A DNA stretch of 55,369 bases from Candidatus Nitrosocaldus tengchongensis (lineage in GTDB: Archaea; Thermoproteota; Nitrososphaeria; Nitrososphaerales; Nitrosocaldaceae): NCBI GenBank assembly GCA_013538675.1, contig JACAFJ010000006.1, forward strand, positions 1-55,369, read 5' to 3'. This document shows, in pieces, positions 24,242 to 29,234 of the stretch (position 1 is its first letter; every line of letters starts with the position of its first letter). The position numbers were made by a program, and so were the translations under genes. Under the pieces are notes generated by a model. The model was not told the DNA's origin. It did no database searches and worked only from the letters and a program-made list of their open reading frames with translations.

Positions 24242-25252
24242 ATGCATGTAGCACTTGTAGCATTTGAGCAGAAAGGTGAAAGCGATAGTATGCTACAGAA
24301 TATACTTAATATACTGAGTAACATGAATGTGAAGGTTGATGTATTGAGCAGTGCTATTGAGCAGCAAGGTTCCATAGACTCTGATCTAGTACTTGTAACT
24401 GGAGGGGATAAGGGTATACTCCAATACTTCCATAAACTTACAGTTGACTCTCCACCAGTACTAGGTGTGTATGAAGAAGATTCCACAGGCTTCCTTGCAC
24501 AAGTTGATGTTAGAGACCTTGCTAGAATTATGGGCATGATACTATCCAACAGGTACAGGGTTGAAGAGGTTACAAGGTTGGCAGTAAGGGTTGATGGAAG
24601 AGAGATAGAACCTGTGCTCAACGATGTTGCACTCTTCCCATCAAAGAGTGCTACGCTCATGGAGTATAGGCTAAGGATAAATGGAGATGATGTATGGCAT
24701 GACAAGAGCGATGGTGTGATAATCTCAACACCTATAGGCTCAACAGCATACAGCATGTCAGCAGGAGGACCTATAGTGCTTAGGAGTGCTAGGGTATTTG
24801 TAGTTGTACCTGTAAACTCAATGGATGTGACTAGAAGACCCCTTGTGGTTAATGATGATGTTGAGATAGAGGTTAGCGATATAATAAGTAGATACAGGTG
24901 TGAGGTTATACTTGATGGGGGAAGGAGGGTTACAGTAAGGAAGATACTTAACTGCTACAGGTATCCTTACCCAGCAAGGTTTGTTAGACTTGAGGGCTAC
25001 TCCCCAGCATCCCTTCTTGCAAAAAAGGTAAAGTTGGCTGAGGATATGCTTGGCATGCCACCAAGTGCAAAACTTGTTCTCAAGACGCTAGAGTATGAAG
25101 GACCTATGAGCCAGAGGGAGCTTATAGCAAGGACCATGCTCCCAGCAAGGACGCTTAGATTAGCACTAAACCATCTCATCCAGAAGGGTTATGTTAAGAG
25201 AAGATCATCGCTTAGAGATGCTAGACAGAAGATATATGAGTTGAGGATCTGA
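24242..25252 (+). CDS. nadK: NAD kinase with C-terminal winged helix
   Basis: Phosphorylates NAD to NADP. The N-terminal domain carries VLVTGGDKG where the family has GGDGT: G54, G55 and catalytic D56 are kept but the fourth position is K57. The second domain has LNDVALF and the conserved STPIGSTAYSMSAGGPIV and later VNDDVEIEV and VILDGG strands. Residues about 270-336 form a separate winged-helix domain (AKLVLKTLEYEGPMSQRELIARTMLPARTLRLALNHL in two adjacent helices), followed by IYELRI. This kinase-HTH fusion suggests NAD(P)-linked gene control or is a structural add-on; which is unknown. Confidence 0.85.
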   Translation: MHVALVAFEQKGESDSMLQNILNILSNMNVKVDVLSSAIEQQGSIDSDLVLVTGGDKGILQYFHKLTVDSPPVLGVYEEDSTGFLAQVDVRDLARIMGMILSNRYRVEEVTRLAVRVDGREIEPVLNDVALFPSKSATLMEYRLRINGDDVWHDKSDGVIISTPIGSTAYSMSAGGPIVLRSARVFVVVPVNSMDVTRRPLVVNDDVEIEVSDIISRYRCEVILDGGRRVTVRKILNCYRYPYPARFVRLEGYSPASLLAKKVKLAEDMLGMPPSAKLVLKTLEYEGPMSQRELIARTMLPARTLRLALNHLIQKGYVKRRSSLRDARQKIYELRI

Positions 25253-27246: not shown

Positions 27247-27280
27247 AAAGTTTAATCGTAACACCAGTATATAGAAAGAT

Positions 27281-27290
27281 TTTTATATAT
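27281..27290 (+). promoter_or_regulatory. TATA box of the MNIO operon
   Basis: TTTTATATAT, centred about 25 nt before ATG 27310. No Shine-Dalgarno is present, so the first gene is probably leaderless. Confidence 0.6.
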
Positions 27291-27309
27291 TAACCCCACA
27301 AATACAATA

Positions 27310-27594
27310 ATGGTTAGCAAAGTAGCTGCAAGAAGAATAAGGGCAGATGTAACATTCGATCATATAGTAGTGCTACCAAAAGAGGCTTCATACAACATAC
27401 AGGCTATATCAGAATCCATCAAGAATATACTTGACATATATGGATGCCCGAACTGCCATTCTGGAAGGGATATACTCTTCAAGAATGAGGAGAGCATGAT
27501 AAGGGATATACGAAGCATATTCATGAATGATTTTGTTATAACCAAGGATCTCAGAGCAAGACCTCTAGGCGAGGCTTTCAACATAACGCTATGA
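27310..27594 (+). CDS. 94-aa protein with CPNCH motif, coupled to the MNIO enzyme
   Basis: A soluble 94-residue protein with exactly two cysteines, in YGCPNCHSGRD (C46, C49, H50). The N-terminal part is basic and then beta-strand/helix (DVTFDHIVVLPKEASYNIQA); the C-terminal part ends RARPLGEAFNITL. There is no signal peptide. Its ATGA stop overlaps the start of the MNIO gene by 4 bp, so both are made together. MNIO (DUF692) enzymes are known to act on cysteines or asparagines of small partner peptides, so this may be the substrate or a metal-handling partner. No family was recognised; the substrate idea is inference. Confidence 0.75.
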   Translation: MVSKVAARRIRADVTFDHIVVLPKEASYNIQAISESIKNILDIYGCPNCHSGRDILFKNEESMIRDIRSIFMNDFVITKDLRARPLGEAFNITL

Positions 27595-29234
27595 ATATAC
27601 CAGATAGAGGTATAGGTATAACATATTTTTTGTCTTTAGAACCATTCATAGAGTCAAACATGGATGTTATAGATGTTGTAGAGGTAGAGCCTCAGAACTT
27701 CTGGCTCCATACACTATCCAATAGATTCAGGATGGATGATGATATAAGCAAGAGGATAATGGCTCTCCCCTGCAAGAAGATAGTCCATAGTGTTAGCATC
27801 CCAGTAGGAGGATCTGTAACGCCTGATCCCCAGCAGGTATCACTTCTTGCTCATATCGTAGATGAGTTGGATGCTGCATGGGCAAGTGAGCATCTGGCAT
27901 TCAATAGGGCAAGGGTCGGTGCAGAGATATTCAATACTGGCTTCCTCCTACCCCCTAGCCAGACAGAAGAAGGTGTAGAGTATGCAATAAGATCGATAAG
28001 AGCAATAATGGGTGCACTCTCAGTCCCCTTTGCTGTAGAGACTGGTGTAAACTATCTGAAGCCCAACGAACATGAATTTAGTGATGGTGAGTTCATCGCA
28101 AGGATAGTCAAGAAGGCAGGTTGTGGCATCCTTCTAGATCTACATAACATATGGACCAATGAGATGAATGGCAGGCAGAGGGTTGATGAGTTCATCGAGG
28201 ATATACCATTAGATATGGTATGGGAGGTTCATCTAGCAGGAGGGGTTGAGGAGGATGGATATTGGCTTGATGCACATGCAGGAGCAATTCCAGAGGATCT
28301 ACTGAGGGTAGCGGAGAGGATAATCCCAAGACTGAAAAACCTCCATGCAATAATATTTGAACTGTATCCATCATACTACAAATCTGAGGTTACCCCTGAA
28401 CTTGTCAGGGAGCAGTTGGAGATACTTCATGATCTATGGGATATAAACAAAAGGAGGTTTGGCTATACCAATAATAGTAGTGTTGATCATATTCAACGTG
28501 ATGATAGCTATGATGATGACGATGTTTGTTATGACAACGTTGGTAATAGTTGCAGTATCAATACTATGACTGAGGATACATCATCCTCTTCTATAAACAG
28601 TAATTCATATGTTCATGATTACAATGGTCCATACGAGGTTGAAGAATGGGAATACACCCTTGGTAGATTAGTGATAGGTTATGAAGTAAACACAGAGTTG
28701 GGGAGAAGGTTATCTGCAGATAAGGCAATCCCAGTATATAGGAGACTGATATCATCATTCCGCTCATCAATGCTGATTAGGGCATTGCCATTCACCTCAA
28801 GATTGTTGATGCTCTCATCCATTGATTATGAAGAACTGTTATCATCATTCTGGAGTAATAATGCACCAGCGTTATTTACAACTGATGAGGCTCTATCCTT
28901 CCTGAATTATATAGAAGGATTAGATCTGGATATACCATACATTAAAGATGTGGTTGCATTGGAAAGGGCTATACTTGTATGCAGGGTAGAGGATGATTAT
29001 GATGGCGGTAAAAGTGAAGAGGTATCATTCGATTATGATCCAACTATACTACTTGGTGCATTGATCCAAAGAAGGATACCAACAGAAATTAACAGGGGGA
29101 GGTTCAGGATAGTGGTCTCATCCGCTGGGCTACGCTGTATAAAGGTATCAGACGATGTAACGAGTGAGATTGGTAGAGGTATGGATATGCAGAAGAGTGG
29201 GGAAGAGAGGGAGATGAGATCATGGAACCATTGA
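27591..29234 (+). CDS. DUF692/MNIO multinuclear iron enzyme fused to a partner-like C-terminal domain
   Basis: Residues 1-290 form a TIM-barrel DUF692 protein (MbnB/TglH/BufB type). The expected metal ligands are in place: H66 (VHSVS), H101 (SEHLAF), E150 (AVETG), D183 and H185 (LLDLHN), H214 (EVHLAGG), D227 and H229 (DAHAG), and E257 (IFELYP). Residues about 291-347 are an acidic Asn/Asp/Ser linker. Residues about 348-520 form another domain: VYRRLISSFRSSMLIRALPF, then helices, then IPYIKDVVALERAIL, resembling the helical partner proteins (DUF2063/HvfC or MbnC/TglI-like) normally encoded beside MNIO genes. The tail is charged. Enzyme family is secure, domain fusion is my reading. Confidence 0.85.
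   Translation: MNIPDRGIGITYFLSLEPFIESNMDVIDVVEVEPQNFWLHTLSNRFRMDDDISKRIMALPCKKIVHSVSIPVGGSVTPDPQQVSLLAHIVDELDAAWASEHLAFNRARVGAEIFNTGFLLPPSQTEEGVEYAIRSIRAIMGALSVPFAVETGVNYLKPNEHEFSDGEFIARIVKKAGCGILLDLHNIWTNEMNGRQRVDEFIEDIPLDMVWEVHLAGGVEEDGYWLDAHAGAIPEDLLRVAERIIPRLKNLHAIIFELYPSYYKSEVTPELVREQLEILHDLWDINKRRFGYTNNSSVDHIQRDDSYDDDDVCYDNVGNSCSINTMTEDTSSSSINSNSYVHDYNGPYEVEEWEYTLGRLVIGYEVNTELGRRLSADKAIPVYRRLISSFRSSMLIRALPFTSRLLMLSSIDYEELLSSFWSNNAPALFTTDEALSFLNYIEGLDLDIPYIKDVVALERAILVCRVEDDYDGGKSEEVSFDYDPTILLGALIQRRIPTEINRGRFRIVVSSAGLRCIKVSDDVTSEIGRGMDMQKSGEEREMRSWNH

Follow-up and report, generated by a model that had tools for sequence, protein, structure and literature searches.

A two-gene MNIO locus in the archaeon Candidatus Nitrosocaldus tengchongensis, encoding a small CPNCH protein and an enzyme with a probable fused partner domain

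Candidatus Nitrosocaldus tengchongensis, a hot-spring ammonia-oxidising archaeon whose energy metabolism depends on copper, carries a pair of overlapping genes, the second of which encodes an enzyme of the MNIO (DUF692) family with a complete set of iron ligands; the pair is conserved in another genus, and where relatives have lost it, both genes are gone together. On balance, we favour the reading that the two genes form a minimal modification unit, in which gene 1 would be a cytosolic precursor protein and gene 2 an MNIO–partner fusion acting on it to give a metal-binding product; here, the substrate status of gene 1, the modification chemistry, and the metal function are what we infer. More tentatively, the locus may represent the first archaeal MNIO system, in which a single-chain MNIO–partner fusion would modify CPNCH, located internally in an intracellular metal-handling protein that is folded and not secreted. 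MNIOs have been described as a bacterial enzyme family that mostly modifies secreted peptides, and, in keeping with the original prediction, no archaeal system is described in the main texts of the open-access literature searched, nor is an MNIO fused to its partner. If the reading is correct, MNIO chemistry would extend to another domain of life, with a non-secreted protein as the likely substrate, and the locus would offer a thermostable system of only two genes, with a single-chain enzyme, that lends itself readily to expression. Close relatives in which the site is empty or the copy decayed also allow a clean comparison.

Both genes lie on the forward strand of the window, by which we mean the whole 55,369-nucleotide stretch analysed (contig JACAFJ010000006.1 of assembly GCA_013538675.1). 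Gene 1 (27310–27594) encodes 94 amino acids and gene 2 (27591–29234) 547 amino acids, with an ATGA start-stop overlap at 27591–27594; the two reading frames, their overlap, and the two cysteines of the 94-residue product in YGCPNCHSGRD were found exactly where the original prediction had placed them. An orthologous pair in the same order and with the same ATGA overlap is present in Candidatus Nitrosothermus koennekii QQ.bins.88, and is 59% (gene 1) and 58% (gene 2) identical in protein sequence, with all ligands kept in both copies. Identity to these orthologues at codon positions 1, 2, and 3 is 69, 78, and 54% for gene 1, and 65, 80, and 46% for gene 2, a pattern as expected under protein-level selection. 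Because of this pattern and of the matching pair in another genus, we regard both frames as real coding sequence. The region 5' of gene 1 (27270–27309, forward strand) appears TATA-like by eye, with the AT-rich stretch TTTTATATATTAA about 25 nucleotides from the ATG, and similar AT-rich stretches are seen, again by eye, 5' of the Nitrosothermus copy and of a decayed copy in a congener. This position would fit a leaderless archaeal transcript, and the predicted promoter-driven operon is plausible. The pair sits between an archaeal pyrG and trpA in a neighbourhood that by eye comprises NAD kinase, pyrG, and trp genes; the NAD kinase-like protein (24242–25252) seems to carry a C-terminal winged-helix-like domain. 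Contamination was considered and rejected on account of the archaeal flanks, the normal G+C content (41% for the pair vs 43%), and the remnants at the same place in the congener. Among the neighbours, inspected by eye, no metal-homeostasis gene adjoins the pair, and no protease or transporter/exporter gene adjoins gene 1.

The N-terminal part of gene 2 (residues 1–286, 27591–28448) is a true MNIO barrel, as had been proposed: residues 10–254 match PF05114, the family of MbnB, TglH, and ChrH, with an E-value of 1.1e-40 and 140 bits against a cut-off of 25, and phmmer matches include the MNIO structures 3bww and 8hci (TglH). The iron ligands of TglH are His71, His107, Glu151, Asp184, Asn187, His216, Asp229, His231, and Glu258 (PMC10880893). 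All nine have counterparts in gene 2, namely His66 (mapped through the 3bww alignment), His101, Glu150, Asp183, Asn186, His214, Asp227, His229, and Glu257. The residues named as ligands in the original prediction are all present, but His185 has to be replaced in that list, since the Fe3 ligand following Asp183 is Asn186. The NCBIfam models BufB, ApyH, HvfB, and ChrH match gene 2 far below their cut-offs; BufB is the best of them (E-value 4.8e-33, 114.6 bits vs a cut-off of 310), and ChrH reaches 54 bits vs a cut-off of 600.

Gene 2 is about 200–250 residues longer at its C terminus than a plain MNIO. The barrel is followed by a low-complexity Asp/Ser/Asn-rich linker (28449–28625), which is much shorter in the orthologue and expanded in this species, then by a C-terminal domain (28626–29168, approximately residues 345–525) conserved at 53% with the orthologue, and by an unconserved tail (29169–29231) that is absent in the orthologue. 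Known MNIOs need partner proteins, mostly DUF2063 proteins with an RRE or relatives missed by Pfam (PME-type 2; PMC12452194). The usual partner, unseen in the original prediction, is apparently not missing here but fused to the enzyme, and the C-terminal domain probably is such a DUF2063-like/PME-type 2 protein. A profile made from 11 bacterial partner proteins adjoining MNIO genes in plasmid records ranks the domain first of about 850 sequences, with 11.8 bits against 6.9 for the best unrelated or shuffled sequence. Profile–profile comparison limited to the helical part (score 21.4, P 0.005, matched by one of 300 column shuffles) gives a colinear, nearly gap-free alignment of 91 columns. In the domain, VYRRLISSFRSSMLIRALPFTSRLL aligns to the partner pattern VYxxxxRxxLxxxLxxxxPxxxxxLG, and IPYIKDVVALERAI to PxxxELAxxExA. 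A low-confidence AF2 model (pLDDT 51) has helices followed by strand-helix-strand-strand; the DUF2063-like helical part would span approximately 28626–28985, with a truncated RRE-like strand-helix-strand part after it. Comparison of the domain with partner proteins over the full length gave no signal, and the homology, which rests on marginal statistics, is backed by moderate evidence. An unrelated domain is rather unlikely at this position; the pair would then still be substrate and enzyme, or work with an unlinked partner. The C-terminal region is without a Pfam match, Foldseek against the PDB with the poor model returned nothing significant, and the Nitrosothermus domain, when taken alone, scores no more than 1.9 bits against the profile of partner proteins, all of which would suit an unrelated domain, but the colinear 91-column match argues against it, as does the result that no other DUF2063 (PF09836) protein was found in the genome (91% complete).

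The two cysteines of gene 1, Cys46 and Cys49, are its only ones, and both lie in the CPNCHSG motif (residues 46–52, 27445–27465), the likely modification site. The protein belongs to no assigned family (no Pfam or NCBIfam match above threshold), and no secretion signal is apparent by eye, in agreement with the original prediction; a membrane anchor is not seen either. The best conserved stretches are GCPNCHSG-(K/R)-DILFK, which is fully conserved between both orthologues, TxDHIVVLPK, and FMNDFVITK. Gene 1 is longer than the usual precursor, and its motif is internal, mid-protein, and not C-terminal; an AF2 model was unusable (pLDDT 38). Precursor, MNIO, and partner are the usual gene order in known clusters (PMC12452194), and this order would be kept here with the last two fused. 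With the partner probably a part of gene 2, gene 1 takes the position of the precursor, whose gene comes before that of the MNIO in known clusters, and the apparent fusion makes it the more likely substrate. A small gene adjoining the enzyme and conserved with it, as looked for in RiPP precursors, is found in two genera. In bacteria, signal-less precursors go with partners missed by the Pfam DUF2063 model, PME-type 2 (PMC12452194), and the same combination of a signal-less protein and a partner-like domain missed by Pfam is present here. The spacing C-P-x-C-x-x-G in CPNCHSG equals that of CPACGMG, the core of ChrA and substrate motif of ChrH (PMC10214503), a likeness to be read as a lead and not as a test of homology. 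Among the characterised MNIO substrates found in the literature searched, ChrA alone has a CPxC motif, and the CPNCHSG motif had no mention in the open-access part. We conclude that gene 1 is probably the MNIO substrate. As an unlikely alternative, gene 1 might be an accessory subunit or an iron or copper chaperone of the MNIO, with CPNCH as a metal-transfer site and the substrate encoded elsewhere. Metal transfer commonly involves a CxxC motif, genes that overlap often code for subunits, partner proteins are a requirement of MNIOs, and gene 1 has the look of a folded, charged protein rather than of a leader plus core; the partner, however, seems already to be fused to gene 2, known precursors precede the MNIO gene as gene 1 does, and no other co-conserved gene adjoins the pair in either genome.

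Conserved synteny in the Nitrososphaerota, suggested as a check in the original prediction, was borne out in part: the pair is kept together in two genera, but with two genomes only it does not characterise the phylum. Among 61 close genomes, gene 1 occurs only in its own genome and in one same-family genome, that of Nitrosothermus, where the pair occupies another site, between a glutamine synthetase-like gene and a tRNA-Glu gene; a small ORF lies on the other strand beside the glutamine synthetase-like gene. Each gene 1 homologue that was found has an MNIO neighbour. A gene 1 profile run over 398 genomes matched its own locus and, apart from that, other sequences only by chance; the weak matches in other Thermoproteota (best E-value 2.5e-4) are without CPNCHSG, and consist of 94-codon frames in genomes of family f35 and other chance matches. 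The 94-codon frame (...CKDCHIVNFILIKDIYRFFK...) is itself conserved in three congeneric genomes of that family (2.7–2.8 Mb), and its motif is unrelated to gene 1. Scanning species genomes of bacteria and archaea, about 85,000 in all, for FMNDFVI and [VI]T[FY]DHIVV, patterns that would miss distant relatives, retrieved only Nitrosothermus. Viral contigs and phages gave nothing, and plasmids nothing or chance matches such as an acyl-CoA dehydrogenase-like frame. As for the enzyme, no other MNIO was found with PF05114 in 250 evenly drawn Thermoproteota genomes; two weak matches were rejected, one being another TIM-barrel-like protein (29 bits) and the other a sequence interrupted by four in-frame stops (25 bits).

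The pyrG–trpA site preserves part of the history of the pair. In four other congeneric species, the gap between these genes is 170–360 bases, with no trace of the pair. The fifth congener, a single-contig genome, has a gap of about 2 kb with a decayed copy of both genes, at about 460–790 of the stretch G001:C1:660300-662800; the 370 aligned bases (65% identity, E-value 4e-22) extend from the beginning of gene 1 to the first part of gene 2. The start ATG has become ATC, the CPNCH codons are partly deleted, the frames are broken, and short remnants of the peptides, ITFYHMVLPKE and LGITYFLSL among them, can still be read. A plastocyanin-like gene, identified by eye, now lies beside the decayed copy on the opposite strand. 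Since the decayed copy occupies the same site, the pair was present there prior to the split between at least these two species. The pair is old in the genus and has been lost repeatedly, in five of six members, always as both genes together. DNA identity between the two genera is 70% for the pair, 70% for pyrG, and 67% for trpA–trpB, which fits descent from a family ancestor; transfer of the pair between the genera is possible. Other MNIOs have been reported from bacteria (PMC12452194). Since the site is empty in close relatives or the copy there has decayed, the pair is an optional trait, and optional for ammonia oxidation. The losses, the visible decay of one copy, and the rarity in the phylum would also be expected of a relict that arrived by horizontal transfer, does little, and is en route to loss in the family, but this is very unlikely considering that neither of the two remaining copies is damaged or has lost a ligand, and that codon-position conservation is typical of selection at 58–59% protein identity.

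It is scarcely credible that gene 1 is a small cytochrome with CPNCH as its haem site: the motif literally fits CxxCH, but the attachment of c-type haem takes place outside the membrane, neither a signal peptide nor a membrane anchor is seen, and the MNIO would be left unexplained. In the favoured substrate–enzyme reading, gene 1 would be the cytosolic precursor protein of a RiPP-like unit, and gene 2 a multinuclear non-haem iron oxidative enzyme with a precursor-binding partner at its C terminus. The fused domain would hold gene 1 by its conserved flanks and offer Cys46 and/or Cys49 in CPNCHSG to the tri-iron site at Fe1, where an O2-dependent oxidation would convert the cysteine(s), a heterocycle being one possible outcome. 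The modified product would stay in the cell and most likely bind a soft metal. Copper is favoured because of the bufferins and the reliance of ammonia oxidisers on this metal; the neighbouring genes give no support for a copper link.

By its sequence, gene 2 is a member of the MNIO superfamily, and the locus as a whole belongs to neither the bufferin nor the chryseobasin systems. As in bufferin clusters (BufA-BufB-BufC, an MNIO plus a DUF2063-RRE partner), the precursor gene would precede the MNIO gene and the partner would be of DUF2063 type, and BufB is the closest NCBIfam model. Unlike bufferins, gene 1 has no Sec signal (by eye), only one CxxC and two cysteines in all, and is not of the DUF2282/Buf2 type; the partner is apparently fused, with no stand-alone DUF2063 partner in the genome at 91% completeness, and no DoxX, sigma factor, or DUF2282 gene adjoins the pair. 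With chryseobasin (ChrA/ChrH/ChrI), the locus has the C-P-x-C-x-x-G of CPACGMG in common, but the motif is C-terminal in ChrA and internal in gene 1, ChrI is a membrane protein (a DUF1772 partner) with no such neighbour here, and the enzyme similarity is weak. The TglHI system for 3-thiaglutamate resembles the pair in that all iron ligands are conserved, and its helical partner with an RRE part, needed for TglHI activity, would have a counterpart in the C-terminal domain of gene 2; its partner is separate, however, the modified cysteine is at the C terminus of TglA-Cys, and identity is low. The putative adjamnio-7 precursors are, like gene 1, signal-less MNIO-adjacent proteins with CxxC (PMC12452194), although these are bacterial (Novilysobacter). 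The PME-type 2 partners (PMC12452194) are stand-alone proteins, whereas the domain described here would be fused to the enzyme, but they would match it in the DUF2063-like helical domain, the short RRE part, the lack of recognition by Pfam, and the association with signal-less precursors.
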